From a virus: 64,000 bases of DNA. Position 1 is the stretch's first letter, and each line of letters starts with the position of its first letter. The position numbers were made by a program, and so were the translations under genes. Below are positions 4,173-59,181 of this stretch, piece after piece. Where the stretch lies: positions 1 to 64,000 of the IMG/VR virus record IMGVR_UViG_3300023174_005819; one strand, 5' to 3'. The notes beneath the pieces are model-generated. The model was not told the DNA's origin. It did no database searches and worked only from the letters and a program-made list of their open reading frames with translations.

Positions 4173-4978
4173 ATAATTCTTTTTAAGGTAAAATAGTTAT
4201 CTGATTTATATATTATATCATATTTTTGCGGAGTCCATATAGTTTTATTTTTTGCTATAAAATCATTAATTGACGCTTTTCTGAATATATCTTCTTTTAT
4301 GGAATTATTTGATATTTTATAGTTTCCTTTTAAATTCGCTACTCTTTCTTCATCTGATGTATTAATATTAGAAATATATTTTTGTATATTAAAGAAAATT
4401 ATTTTTCTTGAATTTGTCCATTCAGAAATTTGAGGTCTTTGAAATTTAGAAAGTAAATAACGATCTAATCTTAAATTTAAATCAATATCGTCATAACCCC
4501 AAACTGCTTCAAAATTTTCATTGTAGCCTTTCACATTTTCAAAATCTTTTTTATTTACCAAAAGAAATCCAGAAGAATCTTTAGAAAATAAATTACTTCC
4601 AGATAAAAAATATTTGTTTAAGATATATGGAGAATTTTTTGATTCGTCAAGTTTAATTAAATTTAAATAATTAATCCAGCTTGAATCAATATTTGAAGAA
4701 TCTGCATCTAGTTTTAGTATAATTTCATTATCTATATATTTGCTTGCTAAATTCCAAGCAAGACAACGATAAAAAAATTTCTCATTTTCTACTCGAATTA
4801 TTTTAATATTTTTATTTTTATAAGTTTCGTTTTTAATAATAGGACTTTCTATAATCGGTTCGTTAGAACTCCAATCAACTATAACAAAATCTTTAATCTC
4901 TGGAATGTTAGTCCAAGTTGGAAGTATTTGTTCTAACTGCTTTGTTCTATTCATTACGGATATTATACAAGAGATCAT
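4169..4978 (-). CDS. GT2-like glycosyltransferase, paralogue of the adjacent gene
   Basis: 269 aa, GT-A fold: MISCIISVMNRTKQLEQILP, FVIVDWSSNEP, ILKLDADSSN (DxD) and GYDDIDLNLRLD. It matches its neighbour motif for motif but has longer inserts in the middle and C-terminal thirds. Together with the next gene upstream (4980-5999) it forms a small glycosyltransferase group on the minus strand, separate from the main glycan block at 26.5-46.6 kb. Confidence 0.82.
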   Translation of the reverse strand: MISCIISVMNRTKQLEQILPTWTNIPEIKDFVIVDWSSNEPIIESPIIKNETYKNKNIKIIRVENEKFFYRCLAWNLASKYIDNEIILKLDADSSNIDSSWINYLNLIKLDESKNSPYILNKYFLSGSNLFSKDSSGFLLVNKKDFENVKGYNENFEAVWGYDDIDLNLRLDRYLLSKFQRPQISEWTNSRKIIFFNIQKYISNINTSDEERVANLKGNYKISNNSIKEDIFRKASINDFIAKNKTIWTPQKYDIIYKSDNYFTLKRII

Positions 4979-8691: not shown

Positions 8692-8716
8692 TTATATTTT
8701 ATAATATTTATATCAA

Positions 8717-9619
8717 ATGATCAAAATTAATGATTTATTAGAAAGAATTTTATTTCTTAAAAAAGAAAATAATAAATTATATTTTATAAATAAAAATAAC
8801 GATAAAGATTGGTGGTCAAAAACATCTCCTAGACTAGTTAAATATATTTTAGATAATCCATCTGTTATGCCAGATGAGGATGGATTTTATTTGATTTTAA
8901 CATCAGAAAGAATTGGGTCTATTGATTTAAAAGATTGGATTTCAGATGAAACATTTAATATATTAAAAAACAATAATATAAAAATTGGAGTTTCAACTAG
9001 TTTAGAAAAAGACTCTTGTAATATTATATGTATACCAAATTATTTTATATTAATAGATGGCAAAAAATATCATGATTATTTTTTATCAAAAAGTAAGATA
9101 AATCATAATTGGGAATTTAAATCTAATGATCTTATATATATGGGGACATTAAATTGTAACTTTAGAATAAATGCAATTAATCTTCTAAAAGAAAATGGAT
9201 TTAAAAAATTATTTACAAGACAAAACACAAATATTAATAATATATCTTATGATGAACATATTAATTATAAATTTATTCTAGATTTACCAACAGAGCATCA
9301 ATATAATTATGACTATTCTTGGGCTATTTGGAAAAAATTTTATTTTAAATCAGTAGTTTTTCATTTATCTTTACCGCAAAAACATCATACATTTTTTTAT
9401 GATCATTTTAAAGATGGTGAGCATTGGATTATTTGTAAAAATGTAAATGATATTATAGAAAAATATAATTATTATCTTAATAATCAATTAGAGGCTAAAA
9501 GAATAGCTGAAAATGGTTATAATAAAATCATATCAATTGTTAATAATTATGATAATGAATATAAAAAATACTTGCAAAAATGCAGAAATAATTTACATCA
9601 CCTTAAATACTTTATTTAA
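8717..9619 (+). CDS. GT90-like (CAP10/LPS-modifying) glycosyltransferase
   Basis: 300 aa. The C-terminal half follows the CAP10 pattern: IYMGTLNCNFRINAINLLKE, YKFILDLPTEH, then FKSVVFHLSLPQKHHTFFYD, DGEHWIICKNVNDIIEKY, and a helix with RIAENGYN. In the family this is an xylosyl-, glucosyl- or capsule-type transferase acting on lipid-linked or protein acceptors; the substrate here is unknown. It stands alone on the plus strand among minus-strand genes. No strong -35 is seen, though TATAAT occurs at 8700-8705, 11 nt before the ATG. Confidence 0.65.
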   Translation: MIKINDLLERILFLKKENNKLYFINKNNDKDWWSKTSPRLVKYILDNPSVMPDEDGFYLILTSERIGSIDLKDWISDETFNILKNNNIKIGVSTSLEKDSCNIICIPNYFILIDGKKYHDYFLSKSKINHNWEFKSNDLIYMGTLNCNFRINAINLLKENGFKKLFTRQNTNINNISYDEHINYKFILDLPTEHQYNYDYSWAIWKKFYFKSVVFHLSLPQKHHTFFYDHFKDGEHWIICKNVNDIIEKYNYYLNNQLEAKRIAENGYNKIISIVNNYDNEYKKYLQKCRNNLHHLKYFI

Positions 9620-9623
9620 TTAT

Positions 9624-9652
9624 ATATTTGAGATTTTTTTGTTAGCAAATAA
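9624..9652 (+). repeat. Fourth copy of the 29-nt palindromic repeat
   Basis: ATATTTGA + 9 bases (mostly T) + GTTAGCAAATAA. Same length and layout as the three copies at 8265-8361. It lies between two convergent genes, ending 9619 and 9658, where a bidirectional terminator would be expected. Confidence 0.75.
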
Positions 9653-9657
9653 AGATA

Positions 9658-10290
9658 TTAAATATATTCTAATATAATTTTATTGTGTATTACTTTGATA
9701 ATTTTAAAGTTTTTATTTTTCAATAAAAAATCGTCTACAGCAGTTTTTACATGTGGAAAATCATGACTCCCATAATCGTCTAATATAATGTATCCATTTT
9801 TTATAATTATATTTTTAGACTGCTCCAAATCATATTTTACGCAATCATATTCATGGTTTCCGTCTATATGTATAATTCTGTATGATAAATTATTATTAAG
9901 ATAGTCTATATAATTATTACTTATTAAAGTTTGTGAGTTTGCTTGTATTAATTTATATTTCAAATTTTTAAGATTTTCTCCGTATATATTTTTTAAAATT
10001 TTTTCAGACCAATTAATTAAATTCGCACATGTACCATTACAAATTCTTGAGTCTTCTGGATTTAAGAATAAATCAATTCCAATTATTTGTTCATTATTTT
10101 TTAATAAAAATGATAGTGGTATAAAACTTTTAGATTGATAAACTCCAATCTCTAGGATATTCCCTTTTATATTTTTTTCTTGATGTATTGCGTCTAATTT
10201 AAAAAATTCTTCTATAAAATTAAAATGAAACCATCCTCGAATATGTTTAAAATTTTTCTTATACTTATCTAGTGCATCTTGATTTATCAT
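9658..10290 (-). CDS. SAM-dependent methyltransferase (class I, Methyltransf_24-like)
   Basis: 210 aa. Motif I GNILEIGVYQSKSF (residues about 44-57), motif II IIGIDLFLNPED, and RIIHIDGNHEYDCVKYDLE then GYIILDDYGSHDFPHVKTAV, typical of the O-methyltransferase/cephalosporin-hydroxylase-like group that act on sugars or small molecules. The D-x-D-D metal-binding arrangement (IDGNHEY and LDDYG) fits a metal-dependent O-methyltransferase. TATAAT lies 8 nt before the ATG. Near the GT90-like gene, so a glycan substrate is plausible (inference). Confidence 0.75.
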   Translation of the reverse strand: MINQDALDKYKKNFKHIRGWFHFNFIEEFFKLDAIHQEKNIKGNILEIGVYQSKSFIPLSFLLKNNEQIIGIDLFLNPEDSRICNGTCANLINWSEKILKNIYGENLKNLKYKLIQANSQTLISNNYIDYLNNNLSYRIIHIDGNHEYDCVKYDLEQSKNIIIKNGYIILDDYGSHDFPHVKTAVDDFLLKNKNFKIIKVIHNKIILEYI

Positions 10291-10317
10291 ATCTAATGAT
10301 TATAGATTTAAATAAAA

Positions 10318-10404
10318 CGGAACGAGTAGGATTCGAACCTACGGATAGAGTTAACCATCGGAAGTTTAGTAAACTTCTGCTTTAGACCACTCAGCCATCG
10401 TTCC
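10318..10404 (-). tRNA. tRNA-Ser, anticodon ACU
   Basis: Acceptor stem GGAACGA/TCGTTCC, D-arm typical of class II tRNAs, anticodon arm GAAGT-TTACTAA-ACTTC giving anticodon ACT, a long variable region and T-arm GTAGG-TTCGAAT-CCTAC. Discriminator is G, as expected for serine. CCA is not encoded. The A34 is unusual: bacterial serine tRNAs for AGU/AGC normally have GCU. Four bases separate it from tRNA-Asn. Confidence 0.88.
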
Positions 10405-10408
10405 AATG

Positions 10409-10480
10409 CTCCCAAACTAGGATTTGAACCTAGAACAGCCTCGTTAACAGCGAGGTACTCTACCATTGAGTTATTTGGGA
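10409..10480 (-). tRNA. tRNA-Asn, anticodon GUU
   Basis: Acceptor TCCCAAA/TTTGGGA, D-arm ACTC-AATGGTA-GAGT, anticodon arm CCTCG-CTGTTAA-CGAGG, T-arm CTAGG-TTCAAAT-CCTAG, discriminator G, no encoded CCA. Asn codons AAT/AAC are very frequent in this AT-rich genome, which may explain carriage. Confidence 0.95.
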
Positions 10481-10488
10481 AAAATATA

Positions 10489-10776
10489 TTAATTATTCTC
10501 TGCAACTTCATTTACATGATCTTTTATTAGATTATATATTCTTACTTCTTCTTTATTAGCTTTTCTTTCAACCTTAGAAAGATTATTAAATTTATATTCT
10601 TTTAATTGATGATGTTTAAAATGATATACTCGTTTATTTGAATAAACTTCGTTAGTAAATCTGATATATCTAAATGGTAAAGCTTCGCCTTTGATCTTAT
10701 AAAGAGTACCTAATACTGGTTGCTCTTTTTCTTCTTCAAATACTCCATCAATGAATTCTAGAATTTTTTTTAACAT
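10489..10776 (-). CDS. Conserved hypothetical phage protein
   Basis: 95 aa, charged and soluble. Begins LKKILEFIDGVFEEEKEQPV; the middle has GTLYKIKGEALPFRYIRFTNE, a probable beta-barrel-like stretch, and a basic region SKVERKANKEEVR. No known family recognised. Its start overlaps the end of the upstream membrane-protein gene (10748-10948) by 29 nt, and two tRNAs follow directly, so the tRNAs may be processed from its mRNA. Confidence 0.55.
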   Translation of the reverse strand: MLKKILEFIDGVFEEEKEQPVLGTLYKIKGEALPFRYIRFTNEVYSNKRVYHFKHHQLKEYKFNNLSKVERKANKEEVRIYNLIKDHVNEVAENN

Positions 10777-10948
10777 TTTTCTTTTTCCTTTTGGGTTTAA
10801 CGCGTTTCCAAATTTTTCCTTGATTGTCTAAATCTACGCTCCATAGCATTACTTTATTATAAATTTTAAATCCATAACCCCAAAACATTAGTGTTCTACT
10901 TATGATATCGCCTATAAAATATAAAATATATGATAACAACAGTTTCAT
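10748..10948 (-). CDS. Small membrane-anchored phage protein
   Basis: 66 aa. One hydrophobic N-terminal helix (LLLSYILYFIGDIISRTLMF), then YNKVMLWSVDLDNQGKIWK and a strongly basic tail (PKRKKKNVKKN). The segment GDxxSR...YNKxMLWSxDLDxxGKIWK is a pattern seen in small phage proteins of unknown function. It has a promoter divergent from that of the cytidylyltransferase-like gene. Confidence 0.6.
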   Translation of the reverse strand: MKLLLSYILYFIGDIISRTLMFWGYGFKIYNKVMLWSVDLDNQGKIWKRVKPKRKKKNVKKNSRIH

Positions 10949-10954
10949 ATTAAT

Positions 10955-10983
10955 ATATTATATAAATTTTATAATAAAGTCAA
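10955..10983 (-). promoter_or_regulatory. Promoter of the small membrane protein gene
   Basis: -35 TTGACT (10983-10978), 17 bp, -10 TAATAT (10960-10955), six bases to the ATG at 10948. A TATAAT at 10984-10989 on the plus strand, five bases before the ATG at 10995, gives a divergent -10 for the next gene. Confidence 0.6.
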
Positions 10984-10994
10984 TATAATATATT

Positions 10995-11474
10995 ATGAAA
11001 ATAGGTTTTAATTGTAGTAGTTTTGACATGCTTCATGCTGGTCATGTAACAATGTTAAGAATGGAAAAAGATTTATGTGATTATTTAAAAGTTGCTTTAC
11101 AAGTAGACCCAACAATTGATAGGCCAGGAATTAAGAATAAACCAATTCAAAGTATATATGAAAGATATGTTCAATTGCAAGCTTGTAAATATGTAGATGA
11201 AATATTGGTTTATAGTACAGAATTTGATCTCCTTCAATTAATAATGACTCAAAAAATAGATATAAGATTTTTGAGTGAAGAATATTTAAATAGAGATTTT
11301 ACTGGAAAAGATTATTGTATTAAAAATGGAATTGAACTTCACTATCATAAACGTGGTCATATTTATTCTTCTAGTGAATTAAGAAAAAGAACAGCAGATT
11401 TAGAGAAAATTAAAAACGATCAAAATCTGATAGAAATTCCACAACATTCTCCAGTTTTGATTAAGCCAGAATAG
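10995..11474 (+). CDS. Cytidylyltransferase-like nucleotidyltransferase
   Basis: 159 aa. MKIGFNCSSFDMLHAGHVTML carries the HxGH signature of the nucleotidyltransferase superfamily, IYERYVQLQACKYVDEILVY matches the ERxxxLxxxxxVDEVI pattern of TagD/RfaE-type cytidylyltransferases, and SSSELRKR at residues 127-134 resembles the (S/T)TS motif. Such enzymes make CDP-glycerol, ADP-heptose or similar donors, so it may supply the glycosyltransferases (inference). The stop codon and last ten bases lie inside the tRNA-Thr gene. Confidence 0.82.
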   Translation: MKIGFNCSSFDMLHAGHVTMLRMEKDLCDYLKVALQVDPTIDRPGIKNKPIQSIYERYVQLQACKYVDEILVYSTEFDLLQLIMTQKIDIRFLSEEYLNRDFTGKDYCIKNGIELHYHKRGHIYSSSELRKRTADLEKIKNDQNLIEIPQHSPVLIKPE

Positions 11475-11536
11475 CACAGCGGTAGTGCAACGGTTTTGTA
11501 AACCGTAGGTCATCGGTTCGAATCCGATTTCTGGCT
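11465..11536 (+). tRNA. tRNA-Thr, anticodon UGU
   Basis: Acceptor GCCAGAA/TTCTGGC, D-arm GCAC-AGCGGTA-GTGC, anticodon arm ACGGT-TTTGTAA-ACCGT, T-arm ATCGG-TTCGAAT-CCGAT, discriminator U, no encoded CCA. Its first 10 bases are also the end of the preceding coding sequence, including the TAG stop. Confidence 0.95.
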
Positions 11537-11537
11537 C

Positions 11538-11753
11538 TTATCTTCGTTTATTAGGAACAAAATATACTATTGCTTCATCACCATATACTTGAAAAGATTT
11601 TAATTTATAGTTTTTATTTTCAAGCATATTTTTTAATTCGTTAATATATTCACTTTTCATATAAACTATAATTTTATTATTATCTTTTGAATCAATTCCA
11701 TATTCTTCTGCAAATTCAGAACAAATAGCTAGAGCTTCACTTTGATTACTCAC
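11538..11753 (-). CDS. Small hypothetical protein
   Basis: 71 aa from a GTG start, five bases after a TAAAAT box. Alternating strands and helices (NNKIIVYMKSEYINELKNML, SFQVYGDEAIVYFVPNKRR) suggest a small ferredoxin-like alpha/beta fold. No family recognised. Downstream of the adenylosuccinate synthetase gene on the same strand. Confidence 0.5.
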   Translation of the reverse strand: MSNQSEALAICSEFAEEYGIDSKDNNKIIVYMKSEYINELKNMLENKNYKLKSFQVYGDEAIVYFVPNKRR

Positions 11754-11769
11754 ATAATATTTTACACTA

Positions 11770-12765
11770 TTAAATTGAAGATCTGTTTCCAGAGAATACT
11801 ATTTCGCAATATTCTTGTAATTGGGTTACTATATATTCTTTCATTGAATCAAAATTAATAAAGTCAATATGACTTGGTCCTTTTTCGTCATCTGTTATAA
11901 TTTTATATTTATTAATATCTTCTAAGATATCGCATTTATTTATGATTAATTTATTTGTGCCAGAAATTTTAACTGCTTGTTTTAAGTGATTTAATCTTAA
12001 CCAATTAACTATTCTTTTGCGACCAGTAGTTGATCCAAATTCTTTACCAAGTTCTATGATTTTATTGAGATATTGATCATTCCATAACGATTCTGAAAAG
12101 AGAGGATCAACCCCACTTTTAGTATCATAAATTTTAGCAACACCAATAATATCTCTTATTTTTTTAGGAGAAAATCCTAGCGAACAAGCTGAATAAGGTA
12201 GCGTTTCACTACTAGTAACATAAGGATAGTTTCCATAATTTAAGTCTAGCCAAAAACTTTGAGCCCCTTCACAAAGAATATTGCCATATAGTTCGCCATC
12301 CCAAATATATTTTTTATCTAGATAATTTCCAGCAAGCCTTCCAATTCGTAAAGCTTTATCGGCGTATGCAGGAGCAATTCCTTGACCAGTTGTTCCGAGT
12401 TTAGGTTTTAAAAATTTAAGATCATATTGGATATGTCTTTCAGTAATTATATGAGCTTTTGGACTAACTTTGATTAATGATGTATCAAATCCTTCTTTTT
12501 TAAGATAATCTATTTCGTCAAAAAATTTGTCAATATTGATAACACAATTTGGACCAATGATGCTAAGTTTATTTTGGAAAACTCCACAAGGAATAATATG
12601 AGTTTTATATTTTTTATCATTGAGATAAACTGTATGACCTGCATTGGGGCCACCATTCCAACGACAAACAGCATCATAATTTTTACTAATAGCATTACTT
12701 ATTTTACCCTTTCCTTCATCACCCCAAGCTAAACCAAATATAATATCTACATAATTGACCATCAT
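11770..12765 (-). CDS. Short adenylosuccinate synthetase family enzyme (PurA/PurZ-like)
   Basis: 331 aa; a second ATG follows directly. P-loop AWGDEGKGK at residues 13-21 retains the catalytic Asp (D16); GGPNAGHT (38-45) retains the catalytic His (H44); then GTTGQGIAPAYADKALRIG, EGAQSFWLDLNYGNYPYVTSS and TTGRKRIVNWL (IMP and aspartate loops). PurA joins IMP and aspartate using GTP; phage PurZ does the same with dGMP for 2-aminoadenine DNA. Bacterial PurA is about 430 aa, so this belongs to the short archaeal/phage size class. Retention of the Asp, which I recall being replaced in classical PurZ such as that of S-2L, argues for PurA-like or intermediate activity. Substrate cannot be decided by eye. 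Confidence 0.85.
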   Translation of the reverse strand: MMVNYVDIIFGLAWGDEGKGKISNAISKNYDAVCRWNGGPNAGHTVYLNDKKYKTHIIPCGVFQNKLSIIGPNCVINIDKFFDEIDYLKKEGFDTSLIKVSPKAHIITERHIQYDLKFLKPKLGTTGQGIAPAYADKALRIGRLAGNYLDKKYIWDGELYGNILCEGAQSFWLDLNYGNYPYVTSSETLPYSACSLGFSPKKIRDIIGVAKIYDTKSGVDPLFSESLWNDQYLNKIIELGKEFGSTTGRKRIVNWLRLNHLKQAVKISGTNKLIINKCDILEDINKYKIITDDEKGPSHIDFINFDSMKEYIVTQLQEYCEIVFSGNRSSI

Positions 12766-12800
12766 TATGATGATACTAATATATTAAACTAATGTAAAGA

Positions 12801-13133
12801 TTATTTTTTATTTATTAAGTGTTGCTGTATTATGTCAAAATTACGATCTAGTTTCTTTTCGATTCTATCAAAATAATCATCAAAAGATTCTTTTGTAACA
12901 TAGGTAGTTGAAATTTTTAAAGCTAAATCTGAAATTTCTTGTTGGTGTTTTCTGCCTTCTGCTTCCATTTCTTTTCTTAAAGTTATAAAATCACTAAAAG
13001 TTTTATCGTTAATCTCTTTCATGAGACTTTCTTGTTTGTCAAAAAGTGAAAATACTCTAGTAAATAACCATCCACCTAAAAAGGATAATGCTCCTAAAAT
13101 AAGATTAAATAGCAATGTAATATCTAAATTCAC
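12801..13133 (-). CDS. Membrane-anchored coiled-coil protein
   Basis: 110 aa from a GTG start. Residues 5-27 form a transmembrane helix (TLLFNLILGALSFLGGWLF) followed by a long heptad-rich helix with KQESLMKEINDK, RKEMEAEGRKHQQEISDLAL and RIEKKLDRNFDIIQQHL. The topology resembles inner-membrane spanins or holin-associated XhlA-like proteins, but there is no lysis gene beside it, so function is left open. It lies between the purA-like gene and nrdB on the same strand. Confidence 0.5.
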   Translation of the reverse strand: MNLDITLLFNLILGALSFLGGWLFTRVFSLFDKQESLMKEINDKTFSDFITLRKEMEAEGRKHQQEISDLALKISTTYVTKESFDDYFDRIEKKLDRNFDIIQQHLINKK

Positions 13134-13163
13134 ATAGATAATTACACATTAATTGAATAGATA

Positions 13164-14228
13164 TTATAGCTTTAAATCACCAAAATCATCATCAGAGATA
13201 TCGGTTTTCCTTGCCCCAACCTTATAACTAGAAATCTCTGTTTCTTGAGGTGCAACTTGAACTTTACTACTGTCAAGATAACTATCATGCCATCCAGATA
13301 TAGGATTATCTTTTTGATTAAATATCTTCTTATAGCCAAGGCTTCTTAGCCTAGAGTCACACAACCATTTAGAATAACCATCTAACACTTCAGCATTTAA
13401 TCCAAGTAAACTGCCATTGCTAAATAGATATTTAGACCATTCGCTTTCATTTTTAGCTGCTTGTTCGTAAAAAGCGTAAATTTTGTCTTCACTTTTCTTA
13501 ACTATAGAAGTAAAACCTTCTTTATCTTCTTCTCTTAAGATTTTAATTAAGTTTTGACTGACTGCAAAATGTAAAGCTTCATCTCTTTGAATAAATTTAA
13601 TAATCTTAGAGTTACCTTCCATTTTACCACGATATCCGAAATAGAAAGAACAAGCGAAAGAAACATAAAACACAAGTCCTTCCATTACATTAATAGAAAG
13701 AATAGCATCAAAAATCTTTTGTTTAGGATCTTTCTTTTCGTCATCTCCAAGAATCTTATCAAAATTATTTCTAATTAATTCAGCACGACTTGTAATTTCT
13801 TTATCTTCCATAATGCTATCAAAGAATTTAGTAGCATCTGGATATACATTATTCAAAAGATAAGAATAAGAATAACTATGGATACCTTCAAATTGCGCCC
13901 AAGTATTCATGCAAATTTCAAGTTCTGGATTACTGACATAATCTTTCAAGGAATGAATACTACGAGAAAGCATACTGTCTCCAAGAGTTTGGAATCTTAA
14001 ATTGCTATCAAATACAAATCTTTCTGTGTCAGTTAAATTTTTATAGTCACTTCTATCTTTTCCTAGTGCTATTTCATGAGGCCACCAGAAATTTTCATTT
14101 TGCTTTTTAAATAATTCAAAGAATATTGGATACTTAAAACGATCATATCTTTGAAGATTAAGGTCTTCTCCAAGAAACAATGGTTGTTTAGTGGTGTCTA
14201 TGTTTTTAAAATTTAAAACAGTCTTCAT
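13164..14228 (-). CDS. nrdB: Ribonucleotide reductase class Ia beta subunit
   Basis: 354 aa. Di-iron ligands match class Ia: D84 (RFQTLGDS), E114 and H117 (AQFEGIHSYSY), E183 (NVMEG), E217 and H220 (QRDEALHF); the radical Tyr is Y121. The C-terminus (SDDDFGDLKL) is the acidic, hydrophobic-ended tail that docks to the alpha subunit. With nrdA it reduces NDPs to dNDPs for phage DNA synthesis. It begins 3 nt after the nrdA stop, so the two are one operon. Confidence 0.96.
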   Translation of the reverse strand: MKTVLNFKNIDTTKQPLFLGEDLNLQRYDRFKYPIFFELFKKQNENFWWPHEIALGKDRSDYKNLTDTERFVFDSNLRFQTLGDSMLSRSIHSLKDYVSNPELEICMNTWAQFEGIHSYSYSYLLNNVYPDATKFFDSIMEDKEITSRAELIRNNFDKILGDDEKKDPKQKIFDAILSINVMEGLVFYVSFACSFYFGYRGKMEGNSKIIKFIQRDEALHFAVSQNLIKILREEDKEGFTSIVKKSEDKIYAFYEQAAKNESEWSKYLFSNGSLLGLNAEVLDGYSKWLCDSRLRSLGYKKIFNQKDNPISGWHDSYLDSSKVQVAPQETEISSYKVGARKTDISDDDFGDLKL

Positions 14229-14231
14229 GGA

Positions 14232-16493
14232 TTATAGTTTACACGCACCGCTTGAACAATCTCTATCTTCTTTTTGATTTAAAGACTGCTCTTTATCACC
14301 ATCATCTGTGTTATTATAATATAAACTAATTAACCCAAGGCTATAAGCATAAATAAGCTCTTTCATAACCTTTGCATCTGGTAATATGTTGTTTTCATAA
14401 TGGCTATAGTTGTAGTATACATTAGTTGATATGGCCATGTCAATATATTTTTGAATAACTGCATTGATTTTTAATAGTCCGCTATTGTCTTTAAGATCAT
14501 AAGCTAATTCATAATTATCATCATATTTACCAATTCCTGGAACCATAACTGGAAGTTTACCCATTTTACTGGTTTTATATGTTATAAGACTACGAATAGG
14601 TTCGACTCCATTTGTTGAGCATTGAATTACTGAACTACTTTCGCAGGGCATACAAGAAGATAATGTAGAATGCCTCAAGCCAAATTCTTTAATATCTTTT
14701 CTTAGTTTATCCCAATCAAGAGATAATTTTCTTTTAACTAATTCGTCTACTTTATCTTTGTATGTATCAATAGGTAGTATACCTTTTGAATATTTGGTTC
14801 TATCAAACTTATCGCATTTGCCTTTTTCTTTAGCTAATTCAAGACTACTTTTTAATAGATAATATTGAAAATGCTCCATCCATTCATCAACTACAGATAG
14901 TGTTTTGTCTGAACTATATTTTAATTCATTTTTCGCCAAGAAAGCTGCCAGATTTGTAATTCCGACTCCAAGGCTTCTTCTTTTTTTAGCAAAATTTTCA
15001 GCAGCAATATTAAAATAATCTTGAAGCTCAATGATTTCATCTAGAAATCTTACGATAAGATCGCAGGTCTTCTCAAGATCTTGCCAGTTTTTTATTTCTA
15101 GCATGTTTACCGCTGAAAGAATACACATTCCGATTTCGCCCTCTTTATCGTGATAATCATTTAATGGAATAGTAGGATGAATAACTTCTGTGCAAAGATT
15201 ACTCATTGTGACTTTATCTAACCATGCTCCGTGATTGTTTGCGTGATCTACATTTAAAATATAAATTCTACCAGTTTCAACTCTTTCTTTAATAATAAGA
15301 GAGAATAGTTTGCGAGCAGACATTTTCTTTTTTAATTTTAATTTTTTAGATTCACATTCTTTGTATACTTTATCGAAGTCTTTTGTTCCCCATGCCTCAT
15401 AAAGCTCTGGAACTTCTGCATTATTAAATAGAGTAATATCTTCATCTTTTAAGATTCTATCATAAAATAACTTGCTCATACCAACTGTGTAGTCAAGTTT
15501 ACGAACTCTATTGTCATCTGTTCCTGCATTATTTTTCAATACAACAATATCTTCAATTTCATAATGCCACCATTGAATATTGCAGGTTGCGCTACCACCT
15601 CTCAATCCATTTTGTTGCCATGCCTTTACGCTACTTTCATAGATTTTTAAAAATGGAATTAAACCAGTATGTACAACTTCCCCATTCTTAATAGAAGATC
15701 CAATAGCTCTAATCTTACTTATATCAATTCCAATTCCACATCTATTCGCAGTAGCCATACTAACTGCAGTAGCACTAGCAGTAATGCTATCTTTTGTATC
15801 GTCTACTCCAATTAAGCAGCAACTAGCGTAATTTCTGCTAGATGTTCTAACTCCTGCCATTACTGGTGTTGGAAGATTAATTTTATGTTTACTAATAGCA
15901 TCGTAAAATTTTCTAACATAAGAAAGTCTTGTTTCTGCTGGATATTTTGCAAAAGCATAAGCTGATATCAAAATATAAGCAAATTGTGGGGTTTCGTGAA
16001 TTTCTCCAGTAGTTCTATTCTTAATTAAATATTTATCACAAAGCTGCTTGATTCCAGCATAAGTAAAAATAAAATCTCTATCGTGATCAATAAATTCCCC
16101 AATTTTATTTATCTCATCTTCTGAGTAATGATTTAAAATACTTAGGTCATAAACTTTATTTTTAATATTTTGATTTAAAAATTCTGATAATCTGGGGGCA
16201 TGTTTACCTTTCCAAACATCTTTTCTAAGCTGATAGTTCAATAACCTTGCTGCAACATATTGATAATTTGGTTTTTCAATTGAAATTAAATTTGCCGCGC
16301 TTTCAATTAAAAGATTATGAATTTCCTTCGTATTAATTCCATCGTGAATATTAATTTTTGCGTTAATCTCAATATCCGTTAAACTAACTCCGCTATAACC
16401 ATCAATCGCCCAGTTAATTACTTTGTTTATTTTTTCTATATTAAACTTTTCAGTAGAACCATTTCTTTTTTTAACATTCGTATTTTTATTCAT
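14232..16493 (-). CDS. nrdA: Ribonucleotide reductase class Ia alpha subunit
   Basis: 753 aa, full family length. N-terminal ATP-cone (VKKRNGSTEKFNIEKI, residues 8-23, onward to about 95), active-site cysteines near 225-226 (NYASCC) and 457 (EIGMCILS), the NLCTEV catalytic triad N432/C434/E436, and PCESSSVIQCSTNGVEP. The tail ends DRDCSSGACKL, with the C-x4-C pair (C746, C751) that is re-reduced by thioredoxin or glutaredoxin. The intact ATP-cone suggests dATP feedback may be kept. First gene of an operon with nrdB. Confidence 0.97.
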   Translation of the reverse strand: MNKNTNVKKRNGSTEKFNIEKINKVINWAIDGYSGVSLTDIEINAKINIHDGINTKEIHNLLIESAANLISIEKPNYQYVAARLLNYQLRKDVWKGKHAPRLSEFLNQNIKNKVYDLSILNHYSEDEINKIGEFIDHDRDFIFTYAGIKQLCDKYLIKNRTTGEIHETPQFAYILISAYAFAKYPAETRLSYVRKFYDAISKHKINLPTPVMAGVRTSSRNYASCCLIGVDDTKDSITASATAVSMATANRCGIGIDISKIRAIGSSIKNGEVVHTGLIPFLKIYESSVKAWQQNGLRGGSATCNIQWWHYEIEDIVVLKNNAGTDDNRVRKLDYTVGMSKLFYDRILKDEDITLFNNAEVPELYEAWGTKDFDKVYKECESKKLKLKKKMSARKLFSLIIKERVETGRIYILNVDHANNHGAWLDKVTMSNLCTEVIHPTIPLNDYHDKEGEIGMCILSAVNMLEIKNWQDLEKTCDLIVRFLDEIIELQDYFNIAAENFAKKRRSLGVGITNLAAFLAKNELKYSSDKTLSVVDEWMEHFQYYLLKSSLELAKEKGKCDKFDRTKYSKGILPIDTYKDKVDELVKRKLSLDWDKLRKDIKEFGLRHSTLSSCMPCESSSVIQCSTNGVEPIRSLITYKTSKMGKLPVMVPGIGKYDDNYELAYDLKDNSGLLKINAVIQKYIDMAISTNVYYNYSHYENNILPDAKVMKELIYAYSLGLISLYYNNTDDGDKEQSLNQKEDRDCSSGACKL

Positions 16494-16569
16494 AATGTAA
16501 CTAGTACAAAAACTATATTACATTCTTTTTTAAAATAAGGAAAGAAAATTTTTAAAAGTTATAAACAAT

Positions 16570-16920
16570 TTACTCTAAATGACTTTTAGGGTGTACTCGA
16601 CCTTTTCTTTTTTTACTCCAATTTTTATAGTAGTTATTTTTTACTGGATCTTTGCCATAAACCTTTTTTCTTTTTTCTGAAAGCTCCGAGCTTCTATCCC
16701 AAAGATCTCCAATACTACCCTTTTGATTTTTTGTATATTCAGAAAATTGTTTATCTGTTGTTTCAGCTTTTAATGTTCCATGAGTATTAACTTCTGGAAC
16801 TGTAAAGACTCTTTTCCATTCTATTCCTTTTTTATCAATATATACGTGATCGTCATGTACAGATTGTACGACATCTATTGTTTCTTCAGTTTCTGGATGT
16901 ATATAGGTATATAGTGGCAT
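16570..16920 (-). CDS. FmdB-like phage protein
   Basis: 116 aa. MPLYTYIHPETEETIDVVQS then GIEWKRVFTVPEV follows the FmdB N-terminal layout (MPxYxYxCxxCg..fE) but the zinc-ribbon cysteines are missing. The rest is hydrophilic, with SIGDLWDRSSELSEKRKKVYGKDPV and a basic end KNWSKKRKGRVHPKS. Related proteins are common in large phages; role unknown. It begins directly after the glycosyltransferase stop. Confidence 0.6.
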   Translation of the reverse strand: MPLYTYIHPETEETIDVVQSVHDDHVYIDKKGIEWKRVFTVPEVNTHGTLKAETTDKQFSEYTKNQKGSIGDLWDRSSELSEKRKKVYGKDPVKNNYYKNWSKKRKGRVHPKSHLE

Positions 16921-18006
16921 TTATTTTAAATAAGATAAAATATTTTCTGTTAATTTCTCTGAAGTAAATTCTTGTTGCAATTTTAAACCTTCTTTATTAA
17001 TTTTATTAGTCTCTACTCTTTTTATTGCTAATTCACAAGCTGAAATAAAATTATCTTCATCAAAATCATAGATATTGCCTTGATTATATGGTAAGCCTTT
17101 ATTAAAAAAGATTCCATCATAAGATTCTATTTTAGAATTAGGTTCTACTAGGACACTATTACTTTCATTAGCCCAAGATTTATATCCATGAGCATCCATT
17201 ATTACTGAATGTTTACCCATAGCGACAGAATGAAATTCTGGTAATCCCCATCCTTCTGCACCACTCATTCCTAGTACGATATTAGCGCTATTTAAAAAAT
17301 CATTGTAAATTTTATTTTGCCCCATAAATGGTAAGAAATTAATATTAAAATAAGTTTTACCTTCTAAAGCTTGAGAAATAAGATTATTTTGATCTTCTGG
17401 TTTCATAAATGGATTAAAAATGGAGCATTGTAGAGCGTATTTTTTATTATTACCAAATTTTTTAGCCCAAAGTTTAATTAATTTTAAATGATGCTTTCTC
17501 TTTTCTAATTTACCAACTAAATTAAAAACAATTCTGTCATCAATAAAATAAGATTTATCTGTTTTATTAAAATTATACTTATCAAAGGCCAGTGGAATAT
17601 ATTCAACATTTTTACATCCAAGATTTTTAAATATTTCTACTGTTTCTTTGCAAGAGAAAAGAACTTTATTGTTATTTTTTACAGTATTTAACTCTACTTT
17701 TGTTGGTTGATCTAATTCATAAAAACTAAGTAAAACTTGTTCGTTAGAATAGCTTTCAAATGATCCATTAAGATGCCAGAGTTTAAATAATTTATTTTTT
17801 CTATTAAATGATTCTAGTGAGGTATTAATTGATTCTTGTAACCAAGTACTAAATTCTTGAGTTAAATCGGATTGAGTAGATAGATCAACATTACCAATAG
17901 GTAAAATACCTACATTAGTTTTAGAATTAAATAACTCTCTAAGAACTAATGTAGATATCTGACCAAAACTTACTGAATTTATTGGTAAGTTAAGAGTTAA
18001 ACTCAT
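16921..18006 (-). CDS. GT-B glycosyltransferase (GT4/GT1-like)
   Basis: 361 aa. N-terminal Rossmann half, then FNLVGKLEKRKHHLKLIKLWA (start of the second domain) and GAEGWGLPEFHSVAMGKHSVI, the EX7E-type donor site, followed by DAHGYKSW. This is a retaining-type transferase using a nucleotide sugar. Its start overlaps the upstream small-protein gene by 4 nt. It is separated from the main glycan block but in the company of nucleotide-metabolism genes. Confidence 0.8.
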   Translation of the reverse strand: MSLTLNLPINSVSFGQISTLVLRELFNSKTNVGILPIGNVDLSTQSDLTQEFSTWLQESINTSLESFNRKNKLFKLWHLNGSFESYSNEQVLLSFYELDQPTKVELNTVKNNNKVLFSCKETVEIFKNLGCKNVEYIPLAFDKYNFNKTDKSYFIDDRIVFNLVGKLEKRKHHLKLIKLWAKKFGNNKKYALQCSIFNPFMKPEDQNNLISQALEGKTYFNINFLPFMGQNKIYNDFLNSANIVLGMSGAEGWGLPEFHSVAMGKHSVIMDAHGYKSWANESNSVLVEPNSKIESYDGIFFNKGLPYNQGNIYDFDEDNFISACELAIKRVETNKINKEGLKLQQEFTSEKLTENILSYLK

Positions 18007-18308
18007 AGGATGTCATCTTCATCCTCTTCAATAACTGGTTGAGCTTTCTTTACTGGAGCAGTTTTAGCTGCTGGTACAGAAGCTACAGTTTTGTTTTGAC
18101 TGTCCAAAGGCTTAGATACGTATAACCTATAATCTGGAGCCTTTTCATTTGTCTTTTTGCTATTAGCAAAAACTACAACATCAATTCTTTGACCATCATG
18201 ATCATTAATATAACCAGACAGAAATGACATTCCTGTTTTGCTTTTCTTTTTCCAAAGTGCGCCTAGCTCATTTTGGTTCTTATTTGTATTTTGATTTGTA
18301 TTATTCAT
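18003..18308 (-). CDS. Small phage protein with acidic C-terminal tip
   Basis: 101 aa. Central segment ELGALWKKKSKTGMSFLSGYI then QRIDVVVFANSKKTNEKAPDYRLYVSKP looks like a small beta domain; residues 75-92 are a Pro/Ala/Lys linker and the tail is VIEEDEDDIL. The layout of small beta core, flexible linker and acidic tip with terminal hydrophobics resembles single-stranded DNA-binding or scaffold proteins (inference). It overlaps the next gene by 4 nt. Confidence 0.5.
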   Translation of the reverse strand: MNNTNQNTNKNQNELGALWKKKSKTGMSFLSGYINDHDGQRIDVVVFANSKKTNEKAPDYRLYVSKPLDSQNKTVASVPAAKTAPVKKAQPVIEEDEDDIL

Positions 18309-18329
18309 TTTTATATTGTATATCTTTTA

Positions 18330-18923
18330 TTATATTTTGTCAAAAGAATTTTTACTTTCAACTTTAGTTTTTAATAGTTTAATAGCTTTATTATGAATAT
18401 TAATAGCCGTTTGCGTACTTATCTTTAATTTTTTAGCTATTTTATTCCAAGGGGTTTTCTTGTTAGAATCATTTAAATATCGCATTTTGAATATCTTCTG
18501 TATTCTTTCGTCCGAACAAGATTCAATAATATTCATAATATATTCATTAATATTTTTATATTCTTTTTGAATTGGAGTATTTTTTTCTATTAAGTAGTTT
18601 AACTTATCAGTTTCAAGGGTTAAGTAATGACTATTTTCGTTCATGCAATTAAGGCATTGATATCTTACTTGATTATATAACCAAGTTGAAAATTTGGAAT
18701 TTTTATTCTCATCAAAACTTAATGCAGATTTATATACTATATAGTCTTTTTGATCTATTACATCTTGAAGATGAACTCCAGATGCAATCATAGGACTAGA
18801 GTATTTTTTATATAAAGAATTACAAAGAGCAGAATGTTTTTGAATTAAAGCTTTTAATGCTTCTTCATCATTCTTTTCTTTTATATTCTTTACTAAAGTA
18901 ATGTCGTCTGTTATTATATTCAT
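18330..18923 (-). CDS. RNA polymerase sigma-like factor
   Basis: 197 aa from the ATG at 18923; an upstream ATG at 18953 would overlap the preceding gene. Region 2-like helices (ALIQKHSALCNSLYKKYSS, DVIDQKDYIVYKSALSFD, FSTWLYNQVRYQCLNCMNE) and a region 4-like helix-turn-helix (WNKIAKKLKISTQTAINIHNKAIKLLK) mark a short sigma70-family factor lacking region 1, comparable in size to late sigma factors of T4-like phages. It may redirect host RNA polymerase to a class of phage promoters; which class is not visible. Confidence 0.75.
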   Translation of the reverse strand: MNIITDDITLVKNIKEKNDEEALKALIQKHSALCNSLYKKYSSPMIASGVHLQDVIDQKDYIVYKSALSFDENKNSKFSTWLYNQVRYQCLNCMNENSHYLTLETDKLNYLIEKNTPIQKEYKNINEYIMNIIESCSDERIQKIFKMRYLNDSNKKTPWNKIAKKLKISTQTAINIHNKAIKLLKTKVESKNSFDKI

Positions 18924-18924
18924 A

Positions 18925-19512
18925 TTATTTTTTATTTTGTAAATATTTTTCATAAATATTTTTTAATTGTTTTTGCATTAATTCATATAAGAAATTAACG
19001 TCTTGACAAGTTTCCCAAACTATACTTATATCGGATACAGCTTTGAGTTTATTATCATTAGATTTTTCTTCTATATTAGCTGGAGGGACTAAAGAGCCAT
19101 CGTCCAGTTTCCTTGAAATATGCACTAAGATGCCATTATGTGATTTTATCCAAGAGTATTCATCATCTTTGTACTCTATATATCTTACGTCTGTTACAAT
19201 TGGTACAACATTATTAGCAATTAATTTATTGACTTCTGGTTGAATTGTGGAAGTCCAGTATTTTCCATCCGTTTGGATTCTTCTACATTTTCCATAAGCA
19301 ACCATGAGTGGTCTTACTATTTCTTTGTTTTCTGGACTGCAATTTAGTAAGTCTATTTTAAATTTATCTTTAGTAAAATCGTATAGTTCATTTTTTAATG
19401 CATCAGCAAAAGCTAATCTTTGCGATTTAATTGCTTTTTCTTCTAGATACCTTTTTAAAATAGAATAAAAAGTATCTTTTCCAGATCGAGCTACTCCAGT
19501 TAATCCAATCAT
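18925..19512 (-). CDS. Deoxynucleoside monophosphate kinase
   Basis: 195 aa. P-loop GVARSGKDT at residues 6-14, followed by LEEKAIKSQRLAFADALKNELY and the VPIVTDVRYIEYKDD segment (DVR base-recognition motif), as in T4 gp1-type dNMP kinases. It phosphorylates dNMPs to dNDPs and sits with dCMP deaminase, RNR and purine enzymes, forming a dNTP supply group. It starts 4 nt after the secreted repeat protein gene on the same strand. Confidence 0.82.
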   Translation of the reverse strand: MIGLTGVARSGKDTFYSILKRYLEEKAIKSQRLAFADALKNELYDFTKDKFKIDLLNCSPENKEIVRPLMVAYGKCRRIQTDGKYWTSTIQPEVNKLIANNVVPIVTDVRYIEYKDDEYSWIKSHNGILVHISRKLDDGSLVPPANIEEKSNDNKLKAVSDISIVWETCQDVNFLYELMQKQLKNIYEKYLQNKK

Positions 19513-19515
19513 TTG

Positions 19516-20001
19516 TTATTCTCCATAAGATATATCTCCAGTTCCGTCGTATTTTGGATAATCTTGTCCAGTTCGAATTTGTTGTGTTCTAACTTGAGTT
19601 TGTATATTTTCTTTTAAAGCTTTAGTATTCACGCTTGGATCGATATTTTTTGCTTCAAATGGTTGGGCAAATATCGTACCACGAGATTGATTAGTAGATT
19701 TATAATCAGTCTTGTATGTTCTATATATTTTATTGTTAACTATATAATACTCTGGAAATGGTTTAGAAAATATAGTTCCATGAGATTGATTTGTTCCATT
19801 TCCGCCACCAGTTTTATATGTTTGGTAGACTTCTATTCCTCTAGCGGTTTTAACATAATTATATTCTTGGAATGGTTTATTGAAAATTGTACCATCAGAT
19901 TGATTTGTTCCACCACCCGTAGTTTTATATGTTTCGTACACAGCTCCAGATTGAGCGACTGCGAAATTAGCTATAAATGATAGTAGTATTATATATTTCA
20001 T
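19516..20001 (-). CDS. Secreted protein with three tandem repeats
   Basis: 161 aa. Signal peptide at residues 1-17 (MKYIILLSFIANFAVAQ). Three repeats follow: 21-47 (VYETYKT...TNQSDGTIFNKPFQEY), 58-85 (VYQTYKT...TNQSHGTIFSKPFPEY) and 92-117 (IYRTYKT...TNQSRGTIFAQPF). Each has the core YxTYKT, TNQSxGTIF and PF. The C-terminus is helical then acidic (GDISYGE). No family recognised. It overlaps the deaminase gene by 4 nt, which ties it to the nucleotide operon although it is exported. A surface or periplasmic role is inferred from the signal peptide only. Confidence 0.7.
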   Translation of the reverse strand: MKYIILLSFIANFAVAQSGAVYETYKTTGGGTNQSDGTIFNKPFQEYNYVKTARGIEVYQTYKTGGGNGTNQSHGTIFSKPFPEYYIVNNKIYRTYKTDYKSTNQSRGTIFAQPFEAKNIDPSVNTKALKENIQTQVRTQQIRTGQDYPKYDGTGDISYGE

Positions 20002-20411
20002 ATTTTAATTAATTCTATATTGTAAAATTTAAATATTTCTTTGGCTGTAGAATCCTTTTCATATTCTTCTGAGTATACCACACTTTTAACTCCATATGCA
20101 ACAATATTAGTAGCACAATTTGAACAAGGTAATAAAGTGGAAGCTAGTAAGTGTGGTTGGTCTCCTCTTTTAACCAAAGATAAAGCGTTGGTTTCAGCGT
20201 GGACCATGTACTTTCTTCTATTATCTCTATCTCTAAAGAAATCTTCATTGATGCTAAACTTAGGTAATAAACCATTATATCCTACAGATAATACTCTACC
20301 ATCTTTATTTAATATGCATACCCCAACTTTTTTATATGGATCTTCTGATCTTCTTGACCAAATTCTTGCTGTTTCAATCGCAGCTTCTATAAATGATATT
20401 CTATTATTCAT
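19998..20411 (-). CDS. dCMP/CMP deaminase family enzyme
   Basis: 137 aa. Zinc site H71-A-E73 (VHAETNAL) and PCSNC (C96, C99); E73 is the proton shuttle. Substrate loop GYNGLLP at 45-50 is typical of dCMP deaminases. The product dUMP feeds thymidylate synthesis by the ThyX encoded at 49955-50611. Short tail IELIKI. Preceded by a tiny hydrophobic peptide gene that shares its promoter. Confidence 0.92.
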   Translation of the reverse strand: MNNRISFIEAAIETARIWSRRSEDPYKKVGVCILNKDGRVLSVGYNGLLPKFSINEDFFRDRDNRRKYMVHAETNALSLVKRGDQPHLLASTLLPCSNCATNIVAYGVKSVVYSEEYEKDSTAKEIFKFYNIELIKI

Positions 20412-20478
20412 TTTGAAAAAAATGCCACTTTATCGCTATTCCAACTCCTATTGCTATGCATATAATTGTTTGAAACAT
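20404..20478 (-). CDS. 24-aa hydrophobic peptide, first ORF of the deaminase transcript
   Basis: ATG at 20478 lies eight bases after a good promoter; the frame MFQTIICIAIGVGIAIKWHF... ends in TAA at 20404-20406, overlapping the deaminase start. It could be a real membrane peptide or a leader peptide that couples translation. Low confidence because of length. Confidence 0.35.
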   Translation of the reverse strand: MFQTIICIAIGVGIAIKWHFFQNE

Positions 20479-20486
20479 AAGATTAT

Positions 20487-20515
20487 ATATTAAATCTTTT
20501 TTATTTTTAAGTCAA
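20487..20515 (-). promoter_or_regulatory. Promoter of the deaminase-secreted protein-dNMP kinase run
   Basis: -35 TTGACT (20515-20510), 17 bp, -10 TAATAT (20492-20487), eight bases to the ATG at 20478. Divergent from the next promoter, 8 bp away. Confidence 0.6.
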
Positions 20516-20523
20516 TTATTTTC

Positions 20524-20552
20524 TTGATTGTTTATAAAGAATAGTTTAATAT
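20524..20552 (+). promoter_or_regulatory. Promoter of the IMPDH/GMPR-like gene
   Basis: -35 TTGATT (20524-20529), 17 bp, -10 TAATAT (20547-20552), six bases to the ATG at 20559. Confidence 0.6.
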
Positions 20553-20558
20553 AAATAA

Positions 20559-21668
20559 ATGCAAAAACAAGAATTCAAAGAAGCGTTAAGTTACGATGAT
20601 ATTTCGTTGCTCCCAAATTTTTCAGATATCACTTCCAGAAAAGAAGTAGATACAACTACTAAAATTTCAAGAAATTGTAGCATTAAGATTCCAATCGTAC
20701 TTTCTCCAATGGATACAGTATCTTCTGTTAAATCATGTATTAAGATGAATAAACTTGGTGCAGCTGGAGTTTTACATAGGTTCATGTCTGTTGATGATCA
20801 AAGAGCTAAAGCTAGAATTATTAAAGATGAAAGCGATTTCTGTGTCACAGCAATTGGTCTTAAAGATGCAGAAGAAAGAATTAGAGCTACTAGCACATTT
20901 ACTAATCTTTATTTTTTAGATACTGCTAATGGTTTAGCTAAGAATGTAGAAGATTTTCTTAGATGGTATAAAACTTCTGGATTTTCTCAAGATGTTATAG
21001 TAGGTAATACTTTAACAAAAGAAAGTGTTTATAGGCTAGCTAATCTTAAAGCAGATGGATTTAGGCATTTAATTGGTCCAGGTTCTATGTGTTTAACTCA
21101 AGTCAAAACTGGAATTGGATGTCCAAGTCTGACTGGTAATTATTACGCTTGGAAAGCTGTAAGAAATTGGGAACTTTCTCAAGTTGATTTATTTAAACAA
21201 GATAAACCAAATCCATCTCATAGACCTAGTATTCTTGCTGATGGTGGTATACGATATCCAAAAGATTTAGTTAAAGCTATTGCTAGCGGATGTGATGCTG
21301 TTATTTGTGGAAGAATTTTCGCTGGACTATCTGATGTTGTTGATGATGAGAATATCATTGAAATAGATGGCAAAAGATTCGCTAAATATAGAGGAATGGC
21401 TAGTCAAGATGTTGTCGAAGATTATGACTTATATGATGGAACTAAAAAGAATCTATTTGTAGAAGGAGATAATACTTTAATTCCAATTATTGAAAATAAA
21501 TCTATTGAAGATATTGTTTATGATTTCACTAATGGTTTAAGAAGTTCTATGAGTTATCTTGGGTTCAGGAATATACAGGATATGCGCGGAGGTCTATGGA
21601 ATAATACTATACAAGCTGTTAGAAATAGTCCGAATAGTATGTATGAGGGATTTGCTCATGGAAAATAA
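20559..21668 (+). CDS. IMP dehydrogenase / GMP reductase family enzyme
   Basis: 369 aa TIM barrel without CBS domains. SYDDISLLPNFSD and IPIVLSPMDTVSS open the barrel; the catalytic loop IGPGSMCLTQ (172-181) has the nucleophile C178; ILADGGIR (225-232) binds phosphate; the flap YRGMASQDVVEDYDLYDG then FVEGDN is intermediate. IMPDH makes XMP from IMP, GMPR makes IMP from GMP; absence of CBS domains and size (about 350 aa) suit GMPR, whereas YRGM and FVEG-like residues recall IMPDH. Either way it acts at the IMP branch point shared with the PurA-like enzyme. Function choice is open. Confidence 0.85.
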   Translation: MQKQEFKEALSYDDISLLPNFSDITSRKEVDTTTKISRNCSIKIPIVLSPMDTVSSVKSCIKMNKLGAAGVLHRFMSVDDQRAKARIIKDESDFCVTAIGLKDAEERIRATSTFTNLYFLDTANGLAKNVEDFLRWYKTSGFSQDVIVGNTLTKESVYRLANLKADGFRHLIGPGSMCLTQVKTGIGCPSLTGNYYAWKAVRNWELSQVDLFKQDKPNPSHRPSILADGGIRYPKDLVKAIASGCDAVICGRIFAGLSDVVDDENIIEIDGKRFAKYRGMASQDVVEDYDLYDGTKKNLFVEGDNTLIPIIENKSIEDIVYDFTNGLRSSMSYLGFRNIQDMRGGLWNNTIQAVRNSPNSMYEGFAHGK

Positions 21669-28380: not shown

Positions 28381-29267
28381 AATTAATTGATTGCTTTATG
28401 TTTTTTAATGAAAAAGATATTGCATATCTTAGAATTAAAGAATTATATGATGCTGTAGATTATTTTGTTATTAATGAAGCCACGAAAACTCACCAAGGGC
28501 AAGATAAAGAATTATCCTTTTGGAAGGATGACAGATTACAAGAATTTAAAGATAAAATTATTTACTCTTCAATAGATTTAGATGGAAGATTCGATTATTT
28601 AATGCCAAAATTTTTTCCAGATGCAAATATTGGCGCAAAGGAACATGAACAAAGAATAAGGCTACTCGAACAAATTGAAAAACTAAATCTATCAGATGAT
28701 GATATCGTTATGATATCGGATTGCGATGAAATTCCTAATAAAAATATATTCCAAGAAATTCTGAATTATCCAGTAGTAGCATTAAATCAAATGTTTTTTG
28801 TTCATTATATTAATATTTATACAAATAAAAATGTAACTGGAACCATAGCTTGCAAATATAAACATTTAAAACATTTAAATACTCTATGTTTTGGAATGGG
28901 TCTTCAGCTTTTAAGAAGAGATAAAGATTTTATGCCAAGGATAGAAAATGGAGGTTGGCATTATTCATATATGGGTGGACCAAAATCTGTAAGCAGAAAA
29001 GTAATCTCAACTTATGATGGAAATTTAAATTCTGAGTGGAAAACAGAAGAATCTTCTAATATGTTAATTCAAGAAAGTATAAAAAATAAAAAAAGTCCAT
29101 TCTCTCAAATGCCATTAGAATTTATAGATTTAAATATAAAAAATAAATTCATAGAATTTTTAACAGCAAAAAATGGAACATGGATTAATGCACAAGGGTG
29201 TTATCAATTTTCTCCAAATATTTTGGAAAAAGACATACAAAATCATAAACATCTTATATATGAATAA
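28377..29267 (+). CDS. GT17-family glycosyltransferase
   Basis: 296 aa from the ATG overlapping the previous stop (ATGA); an upstream in-frame ATG at 28365 is less likely. LIDCFMFFNEKDIAYLRIKE then DYFVINEATKTHQGQDKELSF, VMISDCDEIPN and GWHYSYMGG match GT17 (beta-1,4-N-acetylglucosaminyltransferase family, here of bacterial/phage type). D-x-D at ISDCDE. Confidence 0.82.
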   Translation: MKLIDCFMFFNEKDIAYLRIKELYDAVDYFVINEATKTHQGQDKELSFWKDDRLQEFKDKIIYSSIDLDGRFDYLMPKFFPDANIGAKEHEQRIRLLEQIEKLNLSDDDIVMISDCDEIPNKNIFQEILNYPVVALNQMFFVHYINIYTNKNVTGTIACKYKHLKHLNTLCFGMGLQLLRRDKDFMPRIENGGWHYSYMGGPKSVSRKVISTYDGNLNSEWKTEESSNMLIQESIKNKKSPFSQMPLEFIDLNIKNKFIEFLTAKNGTWINAQGCYQFSPNILEKDIQNHKHLIYE

Positions 29268-59167: not shown

Positions 59168-59181
59168 TATATCATAAATAA

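Follow-up and report, generated by a model that had tools for sequence, protein, structure and literature searches.

A recurrent pairing of GMP reductase-like and PurA-like enzymes in uncultivated phages, a probable route from guanine toward adenine nucleotides

Why an AT-rich virus should carry two enzymes that act at the same purine branch point is the question raised by IMG/VR record IMGVR_UViG_3300023174_005819, a possibly fragmentary sequence of 87,239 bases and 28.1% G+C from an uncultivated freshwater phage; the window analysed here is the stretch of 64,000 nucleotides at positions 1 to 64,000 of that record. One of the two, P0002 (11770..12765, minus strand), is a 331-aa PurA-like adenylosuccinate synthetase predicted to turn inosine monophosphate (IMP), aspartate and guanosine triphosphate (GTP) into adenylosuccinate. 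The other, P0001 (20559..21668, plus strand), is a 369-aa GMP reductase-like enzyme of the IMPDH/GMPR family, predicted to convert guanosine monophosphate (GMP) to IMP. We consider it probable that the two catalyse successive steps of purine interconversion, running from guanine toward adenine, for AT-rich phage DNA. An initial annotation of the window had already placed PurA and an IMPDH/GMPR enzyme at one branch point, and this link is supported. What it had missed is the resemblance of the partner to a GMP reductase, as well as the recurrence of the pairing, in which the reductase is of different kinds and PurB at times joins in.

The pairing was counted in scans of viral contigs with PurA queries, in which loci were defined by the PurA queries alone and the flanking DNA was examined; PurA matches shorter than 600 bp or below 60 bits, those of PurZ type and those matching E. 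coli PurA best were excluded. The scans gave 137 distinct PurA copies, of which 105 are accompanied by a GMPR-family gene within the flank DNA examined, and where at least 9 kb is present on both sides within one locus it is found in the locus of 39 of the 47 distinct copies, counts that are non-independent in that the sequences are related. Three of the remaining eight full-flank copies (L202, L207 and L282) have a GMPR-family gene elsewhere on the contig. One contig, L098, carries two PurA copies (455-1450, minus strand, and 11703-12695, plus strand), which are 80% and 79% identical to P0002, one of them lying directly downstream of a GMPR-like gene.

More telling than the raw counts is the change in the kind of partner. 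Within the 39 pairs the reductase is of the P0001 type in 27, of the L063 type in six, GuaC1 in three, of the L068 type in two and GuaC1b in one, while a GuaC2-type partner is found on three further contigs. Three partners exceed curated GMP reductase cut-offs (L209, 533.5 against 397; L199, 397.1 against 397; L227, 362.4 against 344). The neighbouring nrd, dCMP deaminase and deoxynucleoside monophosphate kinase genes are shared within the lineage of the window but, in other lineages examined, were for the most part not seen next to the pair, which argues that the two genes do not simply travel with a single conserved block. The next enzyme of the pathway is also encountered: the L068 contig encodes a phage PurA, a GMPR-like protein and a PurB above its cut-off (450.4 against 446). 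On contig L422 (3300021364_000012, 75.9 kb), whose further products include a tail sheath and a head maturation protease, purB (8715-9998), guaC (10001-11056) and purA (11031-12233) form a contiguous operon in which all three products exceed curated cut-offs (380.2 against 326.2, 524.2 against 397 and 415.8 against 402, respectively). Since the PurA of L422 is of the bacterial type, we regard this operon as a separate assembly. The PurB genes of these two contigs speak for a pathway that runs toward AMP.

The two families occur together in none of the 13 named phage records checked for both, and no paper on a phage GMPR and PurA pair was found in the open-licence PMC literature. The available portion of PMC12884076 counts 481 viral PF00709 proteins, only part of which form the PurZ group, and members of the phage PurA clade described below may sit uncommented in that set. 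Two of the paired loci have further genes of note. In the L063-type phage L296, a Dam methylase-like gene directly precedes PurA and a thioredoxin gene lies between PurA and the reductase (9453-9995 and 11493-11858), and a protein resembling S-adenosylmethionine lyase is encoded near the GuaC-PurA pair of L225 (12372-13229).

P0002 is a genuine member of the adenylosuccinate synthetase family, as had been proposed: the plus strand across 11770-12765 is full of stops, placing the open reading frame on the minus strand, and its product scores 273 bits against PF00709 (cut-off 27). Fifteen catalytic and substrate residues were checked, and 13 are identical to those of E. coli PurA (D13, K16, N38, H41, T129, R143, Q224, T239, T300, R303, R305, K331 and D333), the two departures being Ser for V273, within a T[KR]SG.DP motif, and Lys for R304. 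The catalytic Asp had been correctly recognised as kept, D16 of GLAWGDEGKGK being the equivalent of E. coli Asp13. Together with the equivalent of His41, the guanine-recognising GTP-type K-x-D and Arg303, which meets the 2'-OH of IMP, it makes up the set of residues expected of a PurA. D16, H44 and S217 are each invariant in 23 of 23 phage PurA sequences. The predicted structure (mean predicted local distance difference test score, pLDDT, 82.3) matches PurA chains with Z of 26.7-33.0, as against 22.3-25.6 for PurZ and PurZ0 chains. The likeness to E. coli PurA thus extends from residues to fold (Z up to 33), while the phage protein differs in its length (331 aa against about 430), in the Ser at Val273 and in belonging to a phage clade of its own. 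In a tree of 47 rows, one of them the PurA of uncultured phage LR756501, and with 10 cellular PurA rows omitted, the phage PurA (25 rows, 99/97), cellular PurA (17 rows, 97/96) and PurZ/PurZ0 (4 rows, 100/98) form separate clades, P0002 lying in the first, beside and not inside cellular PurA, a picture limited by long branches and by rows that include no archaeal PurA. The nearest match to P0002 among 50,697 public phage records has 36% identity, and a genome contig scan with the single protein as query returned three loci, each with a bacterial PurA that shows 33-36% identity.

The family assignment of P0001 made in the initial annotation is borne out by a score of 213.6 bits against PF00478. 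IMPDH needs an Arg-Tyr dyad in its flap for the hydrolysis step. P0001 keeps the catalytic Cys, Thr and Glu common to GMP reductases, and its loop at this place is short, at 21 residues, with zero Arg and without Arg-Tyr, which is the combination by which a GMP reductase is recognised. The flap was compared in an alignment of 59 sequences, 141 having been thinned to 58 representatives with P0001 added (82% identity rule, 300-aa minimum), and the same set was used for the GMPR tree. Arg-Tyr occupies the flap columns in 12 of the 16 IMPDH rows, the other four having it elsewhere in the loop, against 0 of the 43 phage and GMPR rows; one phage GMPR, L206, has an Arg-Tyr dipeptide outside the flap columns, in a loop of GMPR length. 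P0001-type proteins form a clade (100/100) to which L068 is joined (98/92), separate from the IMPDH clade (100/97). GuaC enzymes of types 1 and 2 share with P0001 the Cys-Thr-Glu set, the short loop in place of the IMPDH flap and the lack of CBS domains, and in other phages true GuaC enzymes stand where it does, next to the same PurA. The T. brucei GMPR (6jig/6lk4) and the GuaB1-type enzymes provide a precedent for GMP reductases that lie near IMPDH by sequence score, the T. brucei chains being longer (504 aa against 369) and, according to the accessible part of PMC7160140, carrying a CBS domain, whereas P0001 has none. The nearest sequence in the PDB to the L063-type reductase is 3r2g, deposited as an IMPDH, and its loop lacks the IMPDH Arg-Tyr; on this sequence feature, the protein labelled IMPDH in 3r2g could in reality be a GMP reductase.

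Several observations weigh against the assignment of the two genes to one guanine-to-adenine route. Five of the 47 full-flank PurA copies (L195, L208/L214, L280, L316 and L343) had no GMPR gene found on the contig, and GMPR genes without PurA are common, 78 of the 80 loci kept from the GuaC-type scan (at least 599 relatives) having no PurA in the flank DNA examined. The same scan overturned our expectation that GMPR would be rare in phages. None of the six loci from the GuaC2-type scan has PurA within the flank examined, one of them (L429) lying on the contig of L202, which carries PurA elsewhere. PurA stands beside the P0001-type reductase in 48 of 52 loci, as against 2 of 80 for the GuaC type, so that the presence of PurA predicts a GMPR gene, whereas a GMPR gene predicts PurA for the P0001 type only. 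PurB, sought by PF00206, is scarce (1 of 16 and 0 of 20 records), and the host would therefore normally have to supply it. At the level of the proteins, P0002 scores 264.3 bits against a curated PurA equivalog cut-off of 402 (NF002223), and for this reason we name it PurA-like, after PF00709. P0001 falls below every curated cut-off, with a best IMPDH score of 175.1 against 481.5, a best GMPR score of 143.4 against 344 and other GMPR scores of 124.7 against 465.65, 112.2 against 397 and 109.2 against 492.15. In the tree it lies outside the GMPR1 and GMPR2 clades and toward IMPDH, a placement that is weakly supported (80/94), and its fold does not separate the two families (Z of 40.2 for IMPDH and 40.1 for T. 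brucei GMPR). It is on account of these clades, cut-offs and the undiscriminating fold that we call P0001 GMP reductase-like and not a member of GuaC, both types of which it stands apart from.

The surroundings of the two genes are rich in functions of deoxynucleotide metabolism. On the minus strand purA is the last of a string that begins with nrdA, for the ribonucleotide reductase large subunit with an ATP cone (14232..16493), and continues with nrdB, for the small subunit (13164..14228), and a 110-aa protein to which no function is assigned (12801..13133). The GMPR-like gene and a dCMP deaminase gene (19998..20411, minus strand) diverge, 148 bp apart, and a deoxynucleoside monophosphate kinase-like protein is encoded nearby (18925..19512, minus strand). 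Elsewhere the record encodes a DNA polymerase of the Pol III alpha type, a UvsX-like recombinase, a DnaB-like helicase, an ATP-dependent ligase and a lambda-J-like central tail fibre protein; a search for Terminase_6N gave a match in two of five records. The window also holds numerous glycosyltransferase-like genes (3432-4978, 16921-18006, 29173-29958 and 57251-60333), together with genes whose products resemble a nucleotide-sugar epimerase (44393-45538) and a heptose kinase/adenylyltransferase (10995-11474), which make up a sugar-coat or lipopolysaccharide-type set in a phage.

Other readings of the two enzymes have to be weighed. It had been suggested that P0002 might be a PurZ0-like intermediate, and a PurZ or PurZ0-like enzyme would make the precursor of 2-aminoadenine (Z) DNA; the protein is indeed of the PurZ size class and fold family (as in phiVC8, S-2L and PermaG), and it matches PHROG 1211, which bears the name '2-aminooxy adenylosuccinate synthetase'. 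The kept Asp is nevertheless not a trait of PurZ0, since, according to section 24 of PMC12884076, all 147 phage members of the PurZ group, those of PurZ0 among them, have Ser at this position. The phiVC8 PurZ and PermaG PurZ0 rows both depart from E. coli PurA at D13, T300, R303, R304 and K331, whereas P0002 keeps the Asp, the K-x-D, Arg303 and Lys331, scores 100.2 bits on the PurZ model (cut-off 300) against 264 on that of PurA, and branches outside the PurZ clade; the phylogeny proposed earlier as a check gave a separate phage clade, which is neither PurZ/PurZ0 nor cellular PurA. The reported absence of a DatZ gene from the window extends to the whole 87-kb record, itself possibly a fragment, in which phiVC8 and PermaG queries found no DatZ or DpoZ homologue at E <= 1 (MazZ was not queried), while the same search returned both from the positive-control contig L272, and the polymerase of the record is a Pol III alpha. 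P0002 has a GMPR partner instead, and no PF00478 gene was found in the PurZ phages phiVC8 and PermaG or in contigs L270-L272, a small sample in which L270 and L271 are phiVC8-like. On residues, tree, model scores and partner search we reject the Z-DNA reading, to which we give next to no credence, and the PHROG 1211 label on an Asp-bearing PurA is likely to be a source of false Z-DNA annotation in a large phage group. It is also improbable that P0001 is an IMP dehydrogenase whose flap has changed, an enzyme through which the phage would feed both IMP branches, toward xanthosine monophosphate and GMP as well as adenosine monophosphate (AMP). Its top model score (175.1 bits) and its top PDB sequence matches are to IMPDHs, and it lies nearer to IMPDH than to GMPR1 or GMPR2 in the tree. 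Yet the Arg-Tyr that all 16 IMPDH rows have in the flap loop is absent from a loop without any Arg, and P0001 has neither a place in the IMPDH clade nor a score above the curated IMPDH cut-off; moreover, other phages combine this PurA with curated GMP reductases, and none of the partners assigned to a type was classed as IMPDH. The missing flap dyad thus disfavours an IMPDH identity despite sequence scores that lean that way.

A stronger contender, which we nonetheless think unlikely, keeps the same two steps and moves them to deoxynucleotides, whereby dGMP from degraded host DNA would pass through dIMP and deoxyadenylosuccinate to dAMP, bypassing ribonucleotide reductase. The deoxynucleoside monophosphate kinase-like and dCMP deaminase genes of the cluster would suit such a scheme, and the IMPDH family can take deoxy substrates, since the IMPDH (GuaB) of Borrelia burgdorferi is reported in PMC2764106 to accept both IMP (Km 208 uM) and dIMP, the latter with the lower Km of 66 uM. 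Against this, P0002 retains the equivalent of E. coli R303 and has Ser (S217) for the Val next to C2', leaving a pocket that seems open to a 2'-OH. As described in available passages of PMC8342488, R303 of PurA balances O2' of IMP, a conserved Val near C2' is drawn closer in PurZ and can hinder a 2'-OH, and both sites are where PurZ excludes ribonucleotides. These residues make us lean slightly to IMP and the ribonucleotide level, with the phage NrdAB completing the conversion. The same enzymes working in the same direction could alternatively serve to drain guanine nucleotides, GTP and the precursors of guanosine tetraphosphate (ppGpp), during host takeover, the adenine supply being a by-product, and PurA itself consumes GTP; the place of purA in the nrdAB string and of the GMPR gene beside dCMP deaminase in the lineage of the window points instead to DNA precursors, and we regard a primary role in drainage as distinctly improbable. 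Deoxyinosine DNA has reportedly been found in some Campylobacter phages. A role of the reductase in making dIMP, so that deoxyinosine would replace guanine in the phage DNA, is very improbable here, as the conserved PurA partner would consume IMP or dIMP and there is no sign of dITP use.

We therefore return to a guanine-to-adenine route as the probable role of the pair. Building on the gene identities, active-site residues, clades and recurrent pairing established here, the activities of the enzymes, their direction, the nucleotide level and the benefit to the phage may be pictured as follows. P0001 would reduce GMP to IMP, which P0002 would convert to adenylosuccinate; host PurB, or a phage PurB in some related phages, would then release AMP, which host adenylate kinase and the phage NrdAB, whose genes form a string with purA, could carry on to dADP and dATP. 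Overall, guanine nucleotides would be shifted into the adenine pool to serve a genome of 28% G+C. The suggestion that P0002 is an IMP-using PurA raising the adenine nucleotide supply of an AT-rich genome, put forward in the initial annotation beside the Z-DNA alternative, is supported by the present analysis. Conversion of C to T by way of dCMP deaminase is an established route. The GMPR-PurA pair would be its purine counterpart, both systems shifting G+C toward A+T from within the same gene cluster, with the difference that dCMP deaminase belongs to the pyrimidine arm and the purine arm needs two or three enzymes.

With somewhat more reserve, we favour a broader proposal, that many uncultivated phages carry a modular guanine-to-adenine route made up of a GMP reductase, a PurA of the phage-specific clade and an occasional PurB, which would have been assembled several times with unrelated reductases as a purine counterpart of phage dCMP deaminase, and in which the P0001 type would add another class to the GMP reductases, one built on an IMPDH-like scaffold. 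Phages that are more A+T-rich than their hosts need extra A and T, and such a route, if true, would fill the purine half of this need. It would also explain the lone GMPR genes of many phages, where the host would complete the conversion, and likewise the presence of a non-PurZ PurA beside the reductase.

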